DNA of 64,000 nucleotides. Origin: Tetradesmus obliquus. Its lineage: Eukaryota; Chlorophyta; Chlorophyceae; Sphaeropleales; Scenedesmaceae. Within the stretch, counting starts at the first letter, position 1. Every line of letters starts with the position of its first letter. The position numbers and the translations under genes were made by a program. The stretch is from positions 10,190,501 through 10,254,500 of the forward strand of contig CP126191.1 in NCBI GenBank assembly GCA_030272155.1, in the 5' to 3' direction. The notes beneath the pieces were generated by a model. The model was not told the DNA's origin. It saw nothing but the letters and a program-made list of their open reading frames with translations, and did not search any database. Below are positions 2,097 through 49,867 of this stretch, one piece after another.

Positions 2097-3623
2097 GCAG
2101 CGGCAAGGGGTGTGCAGCATCAGGCTGCGTCTTTGTGGTGCAGCCGGTGCTGTTCAACAGGTTATGTCAGGCAGGTTTGAAGATGCATCTAGGCACCTAA
2201 CCCTGTTTCATCACGACATCATGTGTATCGCCCTTGCTGCTGCCTCGGGGTTCTGGTATTTGCTGCTGCCGCAGGCCCTCATGAAGCAGCCAGAGTTGCT
2301 GGAGGCGGCAGTGGAGCGCGTGCGGCGCCACATGCGCGGCGGCAGCAGCAGCAGCAGCGGCGCAGCCGCGTCCTCCTCAACCGCAGCAGCAGCAGCAGCC
2401 AATGGTCATGCTGGGCCTGGTGGCGTCATCGATGACGATGATGACGTGGTCATGGGTAACACCGTGGTGTCACTCAAGGACCCGTACAGCAATCAGCGCA
2501 TGGCGACTGCTGCTCGTTTTGTTGACACCGCTGGCGCCGCGCCGTCTGCGTTTGACCTGGACAGCTTCCTGGAGGTGGCGCAGGCCACGCGCAAGTGGAT
2601 GGACCCGCACAGCAGCAAGCCTAGCTGCGTGCAGAGCCTGCAGGTGAGCGCAGCTTGCCCAATCTGCAGCAGCAGCAGCAGCAGTAGCAGCGGCAGTGGC
2701 ACTGTCTTACAAGGCGGGTCGATGTTTGAGCCTAAAAGTCTCTTTCAAATTGCTGCCTTGCAAGATGTGAAGAGCACCAGCTGCTGCCCAGCACCTGGCA
2801 TCGTGTGTGCTACTCACCCTTGATCCTCCTGCTTTCCTGCTTTCTGTCCGTGCTGCTGCTGCTGCGGCTGCTGCTGCTGCTGCTGCTGCTGCCAGGTTGA
2901 CGCGTACCTCACGCACATCCTGCGCGTGCTGGCGGGCCTGCCTGAGGTCACCGAGGTGGAGATAACGCCCGAGGCGCACTGGCGGCCCGCAGGCAGCGCA
3001 GCAGCCTTCATGTGCGTGCTCGAGCAGGCGCGTGACATGCACGGTGCTGCTGCTGTTGCCGCCGCTGCCGCCGCGTGCGCTGGTGCTGCTGCTGGTGCTG
3101 CTGCTGGGGACAGTGACGAGGAAGATGACGAGGAGTGAGTGTGGCTTGCCTGGATTAGGTTTCAACTGCAAACACATGCATGGCAGGACTGCTGCACTTT
3201 CATAGAGAGAATGTGCGGCAAGGCAGAATGTGCTGCAAACTGCTGGCTTGCTGCATCCACTTGTATTTTGTGCAAGGAGCATGTACTGTGGTTGGTTTAC
3301 GCTGCACGCTGGCCCTACCTGTGGTATGTCTGCAACAGTGGAACAAGGCAGGCGGTGTCATGTGCATTTCACTCGCTCCTGCACAGAGTAGTACTCTGAC
3401 TGCTGCGCTGTGTTGCCGTGGGTTGCCGCTGCTGCAGGCTGTTCAGGCGCGAGATTGCGCAGATGCAGGACCGCAAGCCGCAGCTGCTGCCTCAGAAAGG
3501 CGGCGCAGTAGAAGTGATCGAGATCCTAGACTCAGACGACGAGCAGCCAGCACAGCAGCAGCAGCAGCAGCAGCCAGCAGCGGCGGCAGCAGCTGGGGTA
3601 GGCACACGTCCGCTAGCGGCAGG

Positions 3624-3656
<33 letters not shown>

Positions 3657-4581
3657 GGCGCAGGGCGGGATGGTGATACGGATTCCTGCGCGCACGCAGC
3701 TGCAGCAGGCAGCAGCAGCAGCAGCAGGCGGCGTGGTCAGTCCTCGGCAGCAGCAGCAAGGCATCACCCTGGGCTCTGCTGCGCGGGCAGCCGCCGCTAC
3801 TGCAGCAGCAGCAGTAGGGCCGCCGGTGCCTGTTGCGACTGGTGGCGGCCAGCAGCAGCTGGCCCAAGGGATTGCAGGAAGTAGACCACACAGCATCACT
3901 CAGACTAGTGGTGCTGCAGGCGCCCTGCAGCAGCAGCAGCAGCAGATACAGCAGCTGGCTCCGCATCACCATCAGCAGCAGCAGCAGGTGCCAGGCGCAG
4001 CAATGCTGCAGCAGCAGCTGCCGGCTGGCATGATGCAGCAGCAGCAGCCTCAGCAGCAGCAGCAGCGGCTGCAAGTGCTGCCTGCAGGTTATGGAGGTGG
4101 GCTGGGTGCCCCTCAGGGCCCAGGGCCCATGCTGATGGTGCAGGGCTCATCTATGGCAATGCAGGGCTCCCTGCCTATGCTGTCATTGGCAATGGGGTCC
4201 ATGGGAATGCCAGGTGTGCAGCAGCAGCTGCAGGGGCAGATGCCTATGCCGCTGCAGCAAGTGCAGTATGCGCCGCAGCCGGGGCTACAGTTTGTGTACC
4301 AGGCAGGCTCGCCTGTGCTGTACAGCTATCCGCAGGGGCTGCCGCCACAGCAGCAGCAGCAGCAGCAGCAGCCAGTTCAGTATGTCAATGTGCAGCAGCA
4401 GCAGCCTCTTGGCGTTCCTGTGTACCAGCAACAGCAGCAACAGAACCCATACCAAGCGTACGTCCCACAGCAGGTGTACCAGCATGAGCAGCAAGTGCCT
4501 GTGTATCAACACCAGCAGCAGCAGCCTCCGCAGCAGCAGCAGTTAGGGGGCTACACAGCCGCTGGAGGGACTTATCAGTGA
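1..4581 (+). CDS. SIZ1/PIAS-type SUMO E3 ligase homologue, 5' truncated, with degenerate SP-RING
   Basis: Seven exons are visible: 1-285, 582-974, 1410-1610, 1955-2056, 2275-2643, 2896-3134 and 3438-4581. All phases agree, giving about 910 codons; the 5' end (any SAP domain) lies outside the window. Exon 2 begins with an intact PHD finger (RCLC, QCCGACC, WQHVEC, FCERC) followed by RADPFWELF, as in plant SIZ1. Exons 2-4 hold the PINIT region (FRFHWPMAANL, GTNQRDEPYDL, RRRTREQV). Exon 5 aligns with the SP-RING (VSLKDPYSNQRM, FDLDSFLEV, RKWMDP), but the zinc-binding Cys/His are replaced. Exon 7 starts with an acidic SUMO-interacting motif, EVIEILDSDDE, then a polyGln tail of about 330 residues. 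The family transfers SUMO to nuclear proteins; whether this one is catalytic is doubtful. Family assignment is strong, activity is inference. Confidence 0.88.
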
Positions 4582-5152
4582 TTGTGATGGTGGTGGTTGC
4601 AGCAGGATTCCATCGTCATCCCTGCAGTTGCCAAGGGGCGAGCAGCACGAGAATTCGGCGCCCCGCAGTGCATTGTCAAGCCTCCCACCAGTCAACTGTG
4701 GCTGTTTCATTGGTGTCAATGTTGTCAAGATTGCACTATCGTGAGCTATCAAATGCAGTTTTGTCAGGGATGCCTGGCTTGCAGGAGGGCACTGCATAGC
4801 CTGGCACTACCAGGCCATGCGCCACAGTGCAGCAGAACCCCAGGTGTTACGGCAACATGCGGGCTGTTCCGGTCGCACTGTTAAGCATGTGGGTTTTCAC
4901 TGTGGCCATCTATGGTTTGATGCCGTGACTGCATAGTCAGTATTTGCTGAACAGTTTTGAATGCAGCTGTGACTTGAGTTCTGCTGTCTGGTTCAGCTGC
5001 ACTGCACTAGAATGAGCATCGAGCTACGTTTATCTTTTAAAGATCATCTATGACACTTGGCTGATTATGATACACCACTACGGCGTGTAGAAAGCGGCCT
5101 GCCTGTCTTGGAGCTTTTCGGCAATTGCTGTCGCTTGGCTTCAGCAGCATCG
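4582..5152. other. Intergenic: 3' flank of SIZ1-like gene and 5' flank of RING gene
   Basis: About 570 bases between two genes on the same strand. I see no open frame with family resemblance, no tandem repeat and no RNA gene. It must hold the polyadenylation region of the upstream gene and the promoter of the downstream gene, but no convincing TATA box or TGTAA signal decides either position. Confidence 0.5.
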
Positions 5153-42400: not shown

Positions 42401-45400
42401 GCAGCGGCAGCAGCATCGGGAGCAGGTGTGACGGCAGACATGGATACTGCTGCGACGCTGCTGTCCCGGATAGGCTCTAAGAAGTGATACATGCAGTGAT
42501 GTGGATGCACTGGGAGTGAATTTCACCGTCAGCTGACACTAACAGTACGGCACGTAATTATACCAAGCCAGAGCTGACTCACCGTCTTCTTTCGGCACAC
42601 ACGCCTCCCCAACTCCCACCACTGTGTTGGTGCAGGAAGGCTGCAAAAGCAGGAAGCCAACGGGCAGACATATGCTCTTCAGATTAATGCAGTGTGCTCG
42701 GCAAGTGTGCTTCGGCCTGCTATACACCACATGTGGTGTGCTGCTGGCAACCATGCATGGCTGCACAGGTCAAACTGCTGTATTGACCCTGCCTTTTCAA
42801 CTTGACGTTGCACGCAACTTGCTGAAGCACAACAACTGTGTGTGATAAACATGCAAGCTGAGCTGGTGGCACAAATGCAGCTTACTTTGCAGGGAGCCGG
42901 AGACGGGCTTGGGACAGGGGAGGGGACTGGGGACGGCAGTGGGGAGGGGGCTGGGGAGGGGAGTGGGGAAGGGAGCGGGGAGGAGGCTGGAGATGAGGCT
43001 GGAGATGAGGCTGGAGACGGAAGTGGGGAGGGGAGTGGGGAGGGGACTGGGGAGGGGCTCACAGTCTGCATAGACGCAAGGAAAGGGCGGCACCCGTAAA
43101 CGGTTAAGAGGCACCACTGTGCATGCAGGCTGTCAAAGGAACATGATACACATCAATTAATGGCAGTCAGGGCCTCTGCAACTGCAGTGCGCTTGTGTTG
43201 CCTTGCTGCTTGTGCAACAGCTGCGTAGTGGCATCCTAAATAGAATGTATCTGTTTGCTGTAGCGGCAGCTGCGCATGGATGCTGGAAATCGGCTGCAAT
43301 ACCAGCACTTGCTGCTGCATACTCACCGCTTCACGGCAGCAGATGCTCTGAGCAGCAGTGCTGCCAATCACCAGCCCATTGACCTGCCCAGTCGGGTTGA
43401 GCTGGGTCCCAATCGGGCAGGCAGCAGTCCAAGCAGTGGCGCAGGTGGCATCAGCAGGGTAGATTGCATCGCAGCACACGCCCTGTGCAGCAGCAGCATC
43501 AAGGCCTGCGATGCTGCTGCCAGAAGCAGATGCTTTGGCAACAAAACCTGAGCCGCACACAAAAGCTGGCTGGCCGGCTGCGTCGCCGTTTGTGTCACCG
43601 CACTTTGCGTTAGCAGCGAATGCAGCAGCGCAGCTGCCAGTCGTTGTGACAGCCCAGTCAGCTGTTGTGGTGCCAGCAATGCGGGTGCAGGTGGCAGTGG
43701 TTGCCTGGCCAGCTCCGAAGCAGGTTGCTGTGCAGGTGGAGCCGACAGCAATTGGGCAGTTTGTGGCCCAGTTGGCGTTGGCAACGCCCGCCAGGGGGAC
43801 ACCCAGGCAGCGGACTGCAGGCAGGCAGCACGGCAAGGCATTTAATATGTGCCGTGCCATTCATTGTGCTTGGCTTTGATTGAGCGCCCAGGTTGCCACG
43901 TTCTTTGCTGCTAATGCTATGATTGTGTGTGCTACTCTTTGAATAGAATCAAATGCTGACAACAGCCATTTTAAATGCCACCTCAGCTGTGATACACCGT
44001 TGTGCCATACGCCACACGTTACAGTGTGCATGCGTTTGCAACAGCATCATATCCTCTGCTGAAACTCAGCAAGTCCGTGCATGCTGACAAGCGTTAGCAT
44101 GCTGACAAGCGTTAGCATGCTGACAAGCTGTAGCGTACGACACTCACAGCCTATCAAAGCTGCATCAAGACGGATGCATGCGCTGCGCATCTGCATGAGG
44201 CGGCAGGTCTGGGGACCTTGCCGAGGGCAGCAGCAGCTCACTTGGTGTGCAGACGCCAGAAGGCGCTGACCATCTGCCTGTGGTGGTGTCACACACGGCA
44301 AATGGAGCGCCTGTGGTGTCACCGGAGCACGTGGCAGTGCACTGTGTCTGATTGGTGCAGCCGCCAGACGGCCAAGCTGCATTCTCTGGGGAGGTTGAGG
44401 GCACTCCTGCGCATGGCACCACAGCTGCAGCACAACAAGACATGCGCAGGAGGTGGCACATGTTCAGCTGGTGTATCCCATTCCACACAGGCCACAGCAC
44501 AACGTCAACAGTTGGTGCAGAAACGTGTGTCAGCACAAACTGCCTTCTGAAAAGCAAGTGAGGTGAAGCTGGTTGCAAGCGCTGATGTCTGCAGCAGCAT
44601 GGCAGGCACACAGCACCAGCCAAAGCACTCTGAGGCCCAGCAAAGACAAGCTGGGTGCAAACTGCACAAGTGCTGCTGCGGCAAGCTGCAGCAGCTCACG
44701 TTGTGGAGCAGGCGGGCAGGCTGTGCCAGCGTTCGAGGTCCATGTACCAGCAGTAGTGCAGGTGGCCGCCACTGTGCCGCCGTTGGTGCAGGCCACAGCG
44801 CATTTAAAGCCGGGGATCTGGCCCAAGCACCGCGTCCAGTCAGCGCCTGGGATGGCAGGAGGGTTGGGGCAGGTGATGGCTTGAGCAGCACCTGCATGCA
44901 GAGCAGCAAGCAAGCAGAGAGCAGCAATTGTCTAATGCTCGAGGAAAGCAACACCAGGTGCAGGATGCTGTTGTGTGAACAGAGTACTGTGAGGCGCACA
45001 GCAGATAAGTTGGAGCATAGTGCTTGCACACAACAGATAAGCGCACCACCACACCTGCAATCTCGGTGACGTTGGTCAGGCTGGCGTTGAACACAGTTGC
45101 CAGGTTGCTGTCGACAATGGCCCTCTGCACGTCTGCCAGCAGCGTATCTGCCCCGCCTTCCAGCAAGTTTTTGTTGAGCAGCTGCAGCACCGTGTCCAGG
45201 CTGGCGCCAGCAGGCAGGCTTGCGCTGGGCTGGTTTGTGATGGCAGCATACAGCGCACGCGTAGCAGTTTCAACCTGGGCTGGCGTCTCCACCAGAGGGG
45301 AGATGGTGATGGACAGCGTGACAGTGATGTTGCTGGCAAGCAGGCGCCTGCCGGTGCCTGCAGGCTGCAAGGACACAGACGGCAGTGAAGACACAGCACG

Positions 45401-48400
45401 GGTGGTGTTGGAAAGGGCTGTATATGGAGAAGGGTGTGTCGGTAAACGCTGGCAACAGGCTTGCTGGATTTGCAGGGGGTTTGAAGGTAAGAACCGACAC
45501 ACCGCTGAGCAATGTCTCATGCTTGGCGCGTAAGTGCACGCATACTGTTTGGGACATAGCCAGCTGTGCTGCAGAAGGTTGAGGGTGACTTGGCAGACAG
45601 GCACAAGCAGGCTGTCAAGTTCAACTGCAGCAGCTGCACAGGCCTTGCCATCCTTGAGGGTTCTTGTTAGCGCATGCTGCAGCCAGCTAGCAGCACGCAA
45701 ACCCAACGCCAAAGGCGCAAAAGCTGAGCAGCCTCTCATGTTCGGCGCGCATATGCACGCACTGCTGAGCGCAACTAGCTGTGGTTGAGGGTGACGCGGC
45801 AGACAAGGCGGACTATACTGCAGTAGCTGTGCAGCTGCACAGGCCTCGTCATCCTTGAGGCATCCTGCCAGCAAAAGCTGCAGCTGTAGCCACCTAGCAG
45901 CACGCCACCTAACCGCAAAGGCAGACACGCGCAGGGCAGCCGCCTTGCTCACCTTGCAGTCAATAACCTCGACGTACACAAGCCCTGCCTCAGCAGCAAC
46001 CATGCCAGACGTAACTTGGCCTTTCACTCTGTCCGCCAGCGCCTGCACAGCAGCTGGGTCGCAGGAGGTGGAAGCAACAGGCACGTTGACTACAGGGGCC
46101 TTGATGATGGGCTTGGGCTTGGGCAGGCAGGGGCCAGCATACTCCACCCAGTTGGGTCCAGTTTTGTTCGGGCCGAGAGGGCCAGGGTAGAACATGTTGG
46201 TGCGGGTGCCGTCTGCAGGCACAGAAAGGCAAGCAGTGTAACAGGGCGGGGTGTTGAGGCAGGGTGCAACGCTATGCAGTTGTTCAAGACTGTGACGTGC
46301 ACAAAGGCAGGATGCAAGCGGCAGCTGAGCAGGATGTGCTGCAAAAGCAGCTCCAGCAGCTGCACCTGAAACAGATTGCAGGGGCTTTTGTGTTAGAAAC
46401 CAGCAGCCACAACAGCTGAACAGCAACTTGCTACTTATCAGCAGCCTGAGGCCCGCCCGGGGCGGCCCATGTGGCAGGTCCTGATCGTGCTGGCAGCGTT
46501 GCATTTGGCAAGCTGCTCTACCACAAGCAGCTGACAATGTTGGGCAGCAGTACTTGCTGTTCTATCCCACCTTGAGCTGCAGTTGCACAACCAGCAGCAG
46601 CAGCACCAGCAGCACCTACCTTGCTGCTAGCAGGGCCACTCACTGTTCTGCGACACCTTCAGCTTGTGTTTGGACTAACAGCGCAGCCGCGTTCTTGTAC
46701 AGCGTGGTGTTGTAGCCGCCCGTGCAGGGGCTTGAGGATGCAACAGCCGCCCACATGTCATCACGGACCTGGGTGTCGGTGGTGCTGTTGAAGCGCACAC
46801 CCACCCTGAAGGAGGCGTAGGTCTTGTTGTTGTACTGTGAGGGGTGCGAGTGTGGCGTAGACAGACACATGCACAGACAGGCAGCACAAAGAGGTCACAG
46901 GCGTGGCCTTGCCACAGGCTGTGCAGTGCTCGGAGTGTGTGGTGCTTAAATAATGACCAGCTGGTGACTTGAAAAAATGTTCTGGCGGCAGCCAGCATCA
47001 GACCTTTACCAAGGCTTCCGCAGGTTGCAGAAGCATGAGGAATATGGGGAGTATGGCTGCCAGGTATGTTAGCCTGGCTGCCCAGGTCTGATGTGCTGCT
47101 GCCACTCACCGTGATGTCCTTGCAGGGTTGGCGCACCACCCTGACAGACAGTGCCGCAGCAGGCCAGCCAGCGGCATTCAGCACATCCATAAAATCTCTT
47201 GTGACAGCCAATGCCAGGGTGTTGTTGAAGTTCTTGTCCTTGGCAGTGGTACGTCGCACAGTGTTCCGTCTTTTATATAGGTAAAGAGCGGCATTTTTTT
47301 GGGAAAGGTCATAACTTGGGCGTCCGAAGGCCACTTGGCACACCGAAACTTGAGCCGAAAACCTTGCACCATGTACTATCATTTCAGGCAGCTTAGGGCA
47401 GTACCATAACGTATAAAACGTTTGTTATGGCCCTCCAAAGACGTGGTTGGCGGAGTGAGACCGGGCAATGCACTACGAGCGCGCATTGCATCCATAGCTC
47501 GACGTTTCACTGGCTGAGCTTGATATAGTAAACGTTATCATATCATTTGAAGTGTTTAGTGTACGTTTCAAACATCAAGAGCGCACGGACGAAGTGTTTT
47601 CCCACCTATTTTCACACCCACGTTCAGAGCGTGAATGCACACGTGTGTTGGCATCACCATCACCCAATCACATTGGCATGATTGTTGATCCAAAGCAAAT
47701 GCCGTTGTTCAAATGTGGAAAATGGACTGGGTGTCTCGTAAGAGGGTGCTTTCCCACATGTGCACCGTCGAAGCGCGATTGCAGCCGTGTTTTGCCATCC
47801 CCAGCAAGCCACCACATTCGCACGTGTGTCAATACAGCATAAACAATAACGGGGCAAGGTGGAAAGTGGATCGCGTGACTGTTCTGAAGGTGAATCCTCA
47901 CCTGTGCACCTTCGGAGCGAGATTGCACCCGTGTTTTGCCATCCCCAGCACGCTCTTACATTCGCAAGTGTGTCTCAACATCACAAAGAATAACGTTTGA
48001 AGGTGAATAGTGGATCGCGTGTCTCTTCTGAAGGTAAATCCTCACCTGTGCACCTTCGGAGCGAGATTGCAGCCGTGTTTTGGCATCCCCAGCAAGCTCC
48101 CACATTCGCAAGTATATATAAACATCATCAAAAGTAACGTGTGAAGGTGGAAAGTGGATCGCGTGTCTGTTTTGAAGGTCAATCCTCACCTGTGCACCTT
48201 CGGAGCGAGATTGCAGCCGTGTTTTGGCATCTCCAGCAAGCTCTTACATTCGCAAGTGTGTCTCAACATCACAAAGAATAACGTTTGAAGGTGAATAGTG
48301 GATCGCGTGTCTCTTCTGAAGGTAAATCCTCACCTGTGCACCTTCGGAGCGAGATTGCAGCCGTGTTTTGGCATCCTCAGCAAGCTCCCACATTCGCATA

Positions 48401-49867
48401 TATGTTTGAACGTCATAAAAAAAACATGTGAAGGTGGAAAGAGGATCGCGTGTCTGTTCTGAAGGTGAACTTTCACATGTGCACCTTCCGGGCGAGATTG
48501 CACCCGTGTTTTGGCATCCCCAGTAAGCCACCACATTTGATTGAGTGTTTCAATAGCATGAAGAATAACTTGCTAAGGTGGAAAGCGGATCAAGGGTCTC
48601 TTCTGAGGAGCGAACATTCAAATTTGTAACAACAGACACGCCATCAGCACAGCGACGTTCAGTATTTAGCTCATTCAAGAAACATCTTTCATCGATAAAA
48701 AACATACTTTAGCATGCCTTTGCCTGCTGTAGATGCCTAAGTACTTGTGCAATCGCGCTCGGAAGGGGAACAGGTGAGGATTCACCTTCAAAACAGGTAC
48801 GCGATCCACTTTCCACCTTCAGACGTTACTTTTGATGATGTTAACATATACTTGCGAATGTGGCAGCTTGCTGGGGATGCCAAAACACGGCTGCCATCTC
48901 GCTCCGAAGGTGCACAGGTGAGGATTGACCTTCAAAACAGGCACACGATCCACTTTCCACCTTCAAACGCTATTCTTTGTGATGTTGAGACACACTTGCG
49001 AATGTAAGAGCTTGCTGGGGATGCCAAAACACGGGTGCAATCTCGCTCCGAAGGTGCACAGGTGAGGATTCACCTTCAAAACAGACACGCGATCCACTTT
49101 CCACCTTCACACGTTACTTTTGATGATGTTTACATATACTTGCGAATGTGGGAGCTTGCTGGGGATGCCAAAACACGGCTGCAATCTCGCTCCGAAGGTG
49201 CACAGGTGAGGATTTACCTTCAGAAGAGACACGCGATCCACTATTCACCTTCAAACGTTATTCTTTGTGATGTTGAGACACACTTGCGAATGTAAGAGCT
49301 TGATGGAGATGCCAAAACACGGGTGCAGTCACGCTCCGAAGATGCATGGGCTCAACAGGTGAGCACAACTCGCAGAACGGACACACGGTCCGCTTGTAAC
49401 ATTCAGCAAATGATAGATACGCTGTCTCGATATATTTTTGGGTATCTTTGCTGCTAGTGATGCCGTCCTAAGCCTTCAAACACGCCCACAAGGTACCGCA
49501 CCGGTGCTTTGCAGGCCTTGGAAGCTCACGTCGGCATCTCGTGCAGATAGAATACAACTACAAACAAAACATAGCATATCTAACATTATATAGACATTCT
49601 GAGAACACCACGGCGATTTGCAAAAACTGCCAAAATTCCGACGCAACACTGTGCCACGTACCCAGTGGCATACACGCCTGCACAGGTCACGTCCTGCAGC
49701 GCCCAGGTGGCCTGCACAAACTGCTGCCGCGTCAGGTTGACAGGAGTGGCCGCCTCACCCAGCTTTGCCAGCAGAGCCCTGCTGGTGGAAAACGAGTTAC
49801 GCGAGGCAGCAGCCAGCTGGGCTGCCATCAGGCAGCTCAGCACTGCCAGCAGCAGCAGGGGCTGCAT
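36472..49867 (-). CDS. Large secreted Cys-rich modular protein, paralog 1; first exon interrupted by a transposon
   Basis: The start at 49867 gives a signal peptide (MQPLLLLAVLSCLMAAQLAA). The first coding exon (49867-49663 plus 47243-47110) is split by the element at 47248-49662. Further exons: 46834-46644, 46212-45953, 45364-45055, 44891-44700, 44424-44242, 43814-43327, 43065-42886, 42640-42583, 42364-42269, 41984-41941, 41658-41532, 41227-41139, 40663-40538, 40114-40041, 39710-39427, 38348-38267 and 36747-36472. Modules in order: Asn-rich N-terminal alpha/beta parts; a 103-residue ASNITVTLSITISPL module; three sushi-like Cys modules; a Ser-Pro hinge; then short knot-like units (CGGTCTVTC, NGCTSFCSYRC, CGGTCPRQC, DGCGGSCTKTC). 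The C-terminal domain ends YDYTWQFGA. Phases close from 45364 to 38267, but the junctions 46644/46212 and 38267/36747 do not, so an exon may be missing there. Probably an extracellular or cell-wall protein; function unknown. Confidence 0.72.
37614..37738 (+). other. Candidate terminal exon on the opposite strand, nested in an intron
   Basis: After a GTACAG acceptor, the plus strand is open to a stop with QWKEEERHGEYLNEMTTAL, then AGNFNQVPAGCVATAP. The hydrophilic, helix-like composition without simple repeats looks like coding sequence. It lies in the last intron of the minus-strand modular gene. No upstream exon or family could be recognised, so this is only a candidate. Confidence 0.3.
42886..43065 (-). 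repeat. Ser-Pro-rich hinge exon encoded by a GGGGAGTGG-type minisatellite
   Basis: This 180-base exon encodes about 60 residues made almost entirely of SPLPSP, SPVPSP and SPASSP units. It links the sushi-like modules to the small knot modules. Such (SP)n stretches in green algae are typical sites of hydroxyproline O-glycosylation in cell-wall proteins. In the paralog the matching exon (60559-60503) is only 57 bases, so the hinge length differs threefold. Confidence 0.8.
44080..44134. repeat. 18-bp tandem triplication in an intron
   Basis: Three adjacent copies of ATGCTGACAAGCGTTAGC, the last slightly changed, in an intron of the modular gene. Confidence 0.85.
47740..48580 (-). repeat. Left arm of the element: six 144-bp units
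   Basis: The landmark TGTGCACCTTCGGAGCGAG starts at about 47759, 47903, 48047, 48191, 48335 and 48478, an almost perfect 144-base period. Neighbouring units alternate between two types, so the true period is 288. Translated on the minus strand, the two types read VTFDDVYIYLRMWELAGDAK and NVILCDVETHLRM then stop. Confidence 0.92.
48745..49360 (+). repeat. Right arm of the element: five 144-bp units in inverse orientation
   Basis: The reverse complement of the left-arm landmark (GGTGCACA and relatives) recurs at 48765, 48909, 49053, 49197 and 49341, exactly 144 bases apart, again with a 288-base alternation. The arm is inverted relative to the left arm, so a single strand could fold into a hairpin of more than 600 base pairs. 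Confidence 0.92.

Follow-up and report, generated by a model that had tools for sequence, protein, structure and literature searches.

Introner families, as described in the part of Gozashti et al. (2022, PMC9860276) drawn on here, hold from 5 to over 2,000 copies each, and their median lengths span 30-654 nt; some have terminal inverted repeats (TIRs) together with 4-bp target-site duplications (TSDs), and some add codons upon splicing. Here we describe a 2.4-kb transposon inserted into a coding exon of the green alga Tetradesmus obliquus, within a stretch of 64,000 nucleotides (GenBank assembly GCA_030272155.1, contig CP126191.1, positions 10,190,501 to 10,254,500 of the forward strand) that is called the window below. 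The original prediction for this DNA was that the element might act as a new intron. With a probability of roughly 80%, it is instead an ordinary recent insertion of a non-autonomous, foldback-like cut-and-paste transposon that left a redundant gene copy null or truncated, a loss that was tolerated.

The element resembles introners (PMC9860276) in having TIRs, a 4-bp TSD as in some families, a GC content below that of its host and a site in a coding exon. It differs from them, as far as the same part of that paper goes, in its length of 2.4 kb, in an acceptor no better than most AGs, in being a candidate intron from sequence alone, and in numbering seven loci with two placed in exons. A further likeness, of build and not of sequence, is to the parts described of Tetris of Drosophila virilis (PMC4079207), which is also apparently non-autonomous and also holds tandem repeats in inverted orientation. 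The repeat unit is about 220 bp in Tetris versus 144 bp here, and in our element the strictly terminal repeat is 23 bp, the arrays are internal and non-repeated DNA lies between the arrays and the ends. Sola2, on the portion of its description used here (PMC3627910), likewise combines a 4-bp TSD with short TIRs, but its duplications are AT-rich (AWWT), unlike most of ours, of which the perfect ones are CAGT, CTAG, CCCA, AAAA and TCTA. The titles and abstract openings listed in searches of the introner and foldback literature gave no account of this element family, although one may exist. Ginger and Chapaev are further DNA transposon superfamilies with 4-bp duplications and short TIRs. A 4-bp duplication fits several superfamilies, and we assign the element to none of them.

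The element, its ends and its related copies

The element and its parts are as follows.

47248..49662, no strand given: non-autonomous foldback-like transposon, 2415 bp, on the basis of its ends and of related copies at six other loci
47248..47270, plus strand: left TIR, 23 bp, complementary to the right end; the same ends occur at other copies
49640..49662, minus strand: right TIR, pairing with the left end
47244..47247, no strand given: TSD CAGT, left copy; three paralogues with an empty site have a single ACTG (coding strand) there
49663..49666, no strand given: TSD CAGT, right copy, direct repeat of the left copy
47698..48606, plus strand: first array of 144-bp tandem repeats, six overlapping 190-nt matches spaced 143-144 nt apart
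48702..49346, minus strand: second array, in which the 144-bp repeat runs in the opposite direction; able to pair with the first as a long hairpin

The TIR sequence is GGTACGTSGCACAGTGTTSCGTC (23 bp). As originally predicted, the 23-nt ends are inverted, with 21 of 23 positions complementary (91%), and CAGT stands at both borders. None of 600,000 sampled pairs of 23-mers lying 2.3-2.5 kb apart in the window reached 21/23 in inverted orientation, the best having 20. Eight further sites in the genome carry a sequence related to exon 1 of the interrupted gene, including three on the contig of the window (C1:10255.6, 10305.5 and 10361.3 kb; contigs are written C1, C2 and so on). The three same-contig paralogues (L032, L040 and L041; 3 of 8 examined) show the empty site as TATGCCACTGCC with one ACTG, and none of them has an intron there, of 2.4 kb or any other length. 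The empty sites show the insertion without any assumption on splicing.

The genome searched comprised 104.7 Mb in 17 contigs; the search tool scores the best candidates only, so that more distant copies may escape. RuBisCO small-subunit exons detected in this genome match chloroplast RuBisCO small subunits of known structure, several of the best (1gk8, 1ir2, 7jfo) being from Chlamydomonas, in keeping with a green algal host. Seven loci have these ends, six of them both ends, and the 13 mismatch-free matches of the 23-nt end pattern all fall at these loci, as do all 77 matches of the 144-bp unit. Two further single ends with 3 mismatches were seen, versus 3 in a reversed-pattern control, and searches with either terminal stretch gave zero copies beyond the seven loci, which are listed here with their flanks.

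Window copy, 47248..49662: CAGT/CAGT, perfect 4-bp duplication
C5 copy, C5:6022692-6025108: CTAG/CTAG, perfect; 99.1% identical to the window copy
C8 copy, C8:2029095-2034302: CCCA/CCCA, perfect; 99.3% identity to the window copy over 2,095 bp
C6 copy, C6:3542137-3544700: ATCC/ATTC, 3/4 match; 74-87% identity in blocks
C14 copy, C14:3365451-3371189: AAAA/AAAA, perfect; 74-87% identity in blocks
C16 copy, C16:83741-85722: TCTA/TCTA, perfect; about 90% identity in the longest blocks
Split C5 copy, C5:5970852: AGCA/ACTG, no duplication; 98.5% identity over 2,100 bp

Five of the seven duplications are perfect and mutually different, one matches at 3 of 4 positions and one locus, where the right end is split by another insertion, has none; the chance of at least 5/7 perfect 4-bp duplications is about 2e-11. 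A lack of duplications at other copies, which the original prediction had named as evidence against itself, was thus not borne out; nor did the three paralogues examined show the other result so named, a 2.4-kb intron lacking the end repeats. Empty sites were sought for the window insertion, i.e., for one of the seven loci. With ends common to the copies, duplications of fixed length that differ from copy to copy and an empty site, the element is a cut-and-paste TIR DNA transposon, and the earlier claim of a transposon in a coding exon stands on the same three observations.

The GC content of the element is 47.7%, against 56.3% for the window. About 450 bp of non-repeated DNA precedes the first array, and a 95-bp spacer separates the two opposed arrays. 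The hairpin arms measure 517 nt at 94% complementarity and 647 nt at 83%, and a single-strand DNA fold of 871 nt of the interior gave a z of -25 relative to 20 shuffles. Having long inverted tandem-repeat arrays that are able to fold back, the element is foldback-like in build.

A transposase was looked for in 30 open frames, ten each from the window, C14 and C8 copies, with zero Pfam families at the cut-off, the best E-values in the C8 and C14 frames being 0.007. Searches for an autonomous partner, made with end patterns of 23 and 18 nt and with each of the terminal stretches, returned the known loci and a few degenerate single ends on C2 and C7 that were no commoner than in the reversed-pattern control. 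Three long copies were considered as autonomous elements and rejected. The surplus length of the 5.2-kb C8 copy is a 2.7-kb nested insertion with CACTATG ends, the ten frames of the 5.7-kb C14 copy hold no Pfam family at the cut-off, and the apparent 13.5-kb element at C5:5970852-5984368 is a copy with a 10.5-kb insertion splitting its right end.

The insertions nested in two of the copies (the C8 copy and that at C5:5970852) are CACTATGGTCACC-ended. The first occupies positions 2292-5030 of the C8 element (2.7 kb, CACTATG ends, 3-bp duplication CAC) and the second C5:5973832-5984350 (10.5 kb, CACTATG ends, 3-bp duplication AAC); the ends look CACTA-like. The C14 copy contains about 3.2 kb of extra DNA (C14:3367646-3370826) without CACTATG ends by the same pattern. 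Upstream of it, at C14:3363951-3365063 (L038 951-2063), lies an open frame of 371 residues with a Phage_integrase match (E 9e-6, 26.0 bits versus a cut-off of 27.1), a tyrosine-recombinase-like gene that perhaps belongs to another mobile element.

The interrupted gene and the age of the insertion

The gene that the element interrupts is encoded on the minus strand and comprises at least seven exons here.

49663..49867, minus strand: exon 1, first part, with ATG at 49867; N-terminus hydrophobic and signal-like by eye
47110..47247, minus strand: exon 1, second part, ending in ACG before GTGAGT and containing the left TSD copy
46644..46834, minus strand: exon 2, 191 nt versus 199 in the paralogue, net -9 +1, with a frameshift at about 46661-46678
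43327..46212, minus strand: exons 3-7; each differs in length from the paralogue by a multiple of three, with the GT-AG borders kept

When the element and one CAGT are removed, the 339-nt exon in phase 0 that had been predicted is recovered: it is 0 mod 3, has an open reading frame and is colinear with the continuous 345-nt exon of the paralogue at C1:10255.6 kb. A Pfam scan of the intact paralogue's protein gave no match. The gene appears to belong to a clustered family that encodes secreted-type proteins.

The statement that the gene otherwise looks maintained could not be upheld. Among the four paralogues compared, exon 2 is frameshifted (+1) in the insertion-bearing copy alone; the reading VAALFAK...KVSQN is kept by the three others and lost in the window copy alone, in which the frame of the gene, read as joined, terminates in exon 3. 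In exon 1 and exons 3-7 the length differences from the nearest paralogue are all multiples of three.

Over exons 1-7, with exon 2 cut before the frameshift, the host gene differs from its nearest paralogue by a nonsynonymous divergence (dN) of 0.18 and a synonymous divergence (dS) of 0.47, a ratio of 0.38 that mostly reflects the time before the insertion. The dS of exon 1 (window 47110-47247 plus 49663-49867 versus L032 5563-5908) is 0.10, against 0.36-0.87 for exons 2-7, a contrast suggestive of recent gene conversion in exon 1. The insertion itself is young, the copies on C5 (99.1%) and C8 (99.3%) being nearly identical to it against a host-paralogue dS of 0.47. Owing to this youth, an open frame around the insertion says little on splicing.

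Splice signals of the element

Read through unspliced, the element gives a first in-frame stop after 74 nt. Both sites proposed for its removal, the GT at 49661 and the AG at 47271-47270, are present, and joining them leaves 27 nt, made up of 23 nt of the element and the 4-nt duplication and therefore a multiple of three by construction, in any insertion phase. The residues retained in frame are nine (GRNTVRRTT), and not the eight (RNTVRRTT) of the original prediction.

The matrices used to score the two sites were trained on 26 donors and 22 acceptors from the host gene family, located through protein homology rather than cDNA; this training set is small, and its members are related, coming from a single gene family. 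Enlarged matrices add two donors and two acceptors of the gene that holds the C5 copy (28 donors, 24 acceptors). Leave-one-out training scores ran from 3.7 to 13.2 for donors and from 0.7 to 14.7 for acceptors. The proposed window donor (TGG/GTACGTG, the slash marking the splice point) scored -0.73, below all 26 training donors, and the proposed acceptor (TATAAAAG/A) scored -5.19, below all 22 training acceptors; with the enlarged matrices the values were 0.81 and -5.65. All 24 acceptors of the enlarged set end in CAG, whereas the proposed one ends in AAG, with A and not C at -3. On both strands of the window, 69% of 9,361 AGs score at least as high as the proposed acceptor and 21% of 7,460 GTs at least as high as the proposed donor. 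The proposed pair ranks 23rd of the 72 in-frame GT-AG pairs, and the best in-frame pair of the element reaches 1.59 in total.

As a null, the element was replaced by a random genomic segment in 2,000 trials, the segments being drawn from the window, element included, and seven other loci retrieved from the genome. An in-frame pair was present in every trial, 39% of the segments held a pair at least equal to the proposed one within 30 and 45 nt of their ends, and in 82% the best pair equalled or outscored that of the element.

The C5 copy splits a serine-proline-rich exon of another secreted-type gene (L034, C5:6021247-6026003, minus strand), for which a three-exon model has 448 codons open without the element. 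The 3' part of this gene has a Pfam Big_1 match below the cut-off (E 1e-4), and a search of the genome gave, besides itself, one weak relative at 31% identity and no close second copy. The equivalent splice again leaves 27 nt and the frame stays open, and the acceptor, at -6.77 or, with the enlarged matrices, -6.75, is outside the training range. Usable splice sites were accordingly not found: the acceptor lies below the training range at both exon copies, and the donor at the window copy.

Two of the six complete copies are in coding exons. In the other four, the longest open frames across the joined sites did not exceed chance in length (null fractions of 0.59-0.82 against 600 random positions of the window, compared with 0.22 at the window site and 0.035 at the C5 site), a weak test that would miss the window exon too, so that these four are not thereby placed outside exons. 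Pfam searches with 10 of 25 flank frames of the four gave none at the cut-off, the nearest being the Phage_integrase match beside the C14 copy. The suggested genome search for the same ends thus yielded seven loci.

Readings of the locus

On the reading that we favour, the insertion into exon 1 of this member of a duplicated family is a recent one by a non-autonomous element, presumably moved by a transposase encoded elsewhere. Unless spliced out, it would stop translation 74 nt into its own sequence and so give a null or truncated allele, whose loss would be tolerated because paralogues remain. The empty sites, the shared ends, the duplications, the youth of the insertion, the exon 2 frameshift and the poor splice signals together argue for this reading.

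Several observations weigh on the other side. Exons 3-7 are open in the paralogue's frame with intact GT-AG borders, so that the window copy, if a pseudogene at all, became one very recently. The evidence of the exon 2 frameshift is strong but not final: an assembly error may account for it, and a weak alternative donor (AAG/GTGTCG) 13 nt upstream restores the frame by hand count, although it scores 1.07 against 13.13 for the normal donor. Finally, the C5 copy is also in a coding exon, oriented to its gene as in the window, and its donor (3.16 or, with the enlarged matrices, 5.03) is just below or within the training range.

On the introner-like alternative, the spliceosome would remove the element from G/GTACGT in the right end to AAAAG/A inside the left end, with a gain of nine residues. 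The GT and AG are where it places them, the 27 nt retained are in frame in any phase, and at both exon copies, which share their orientation, the splice is open across the retained stretch; the C5 donor is close to or inside the range of the training donors, and introners with 4-bp TSDs and TIRs, as well as codon-adding ones, are described in the part of Gozashti et al. (2022, PMC9860276) cited above. Against this stand the window acceptor (-5.19 versus 0.7 to 14.7, A at -3 versus C in all 24, 69% of AGs as good), the window donor (-0.73 versus 3.7 to 13.2), the rank of the pair (23rd of 72) and its being equalled near both ends by 39% of random segments, the downstream frameshift in exon 2 of the same gene, and a length of 2.4 kb versus introner family medians of 30-654 nt (PMC9860276). 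The element may be an intron, but its sequence does not support this. With poor scores at both sites, a pair that is common by chance and a frameshift in exon 2, we consider the introner-like role improbable and do not retain that part of the original prediction.

Equally improbable, in our view, is an inefficient removal by cryptic sites, which would yield a minor altered transcript but no evolved intron. The 72 in-frame GT-AG pairs, the best totalling 1.59, would offer the means, for example from a donor 28 nt before the element to an acceptor lying 144 nt in from its far end; 82% of the 2,000 random segments offer a pair at least as good, however, so that nothing in the element looks adapted for splicing. 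Least probable of all, and very doubtful, is an incipient introner in which spliced ends would always leave 27 in-frame nucleotides, the long internal hairpin would draw the two splice sites close to each other and the insertion would be tolerated in two secreted-type genes.

If the element is unspliced, the locus would be a case of ordinary transposon damage to a redundant gene copy. The two young exon insertions, one of them with empty-site paralogues in the same genome, make a test case for elements becoming introns.

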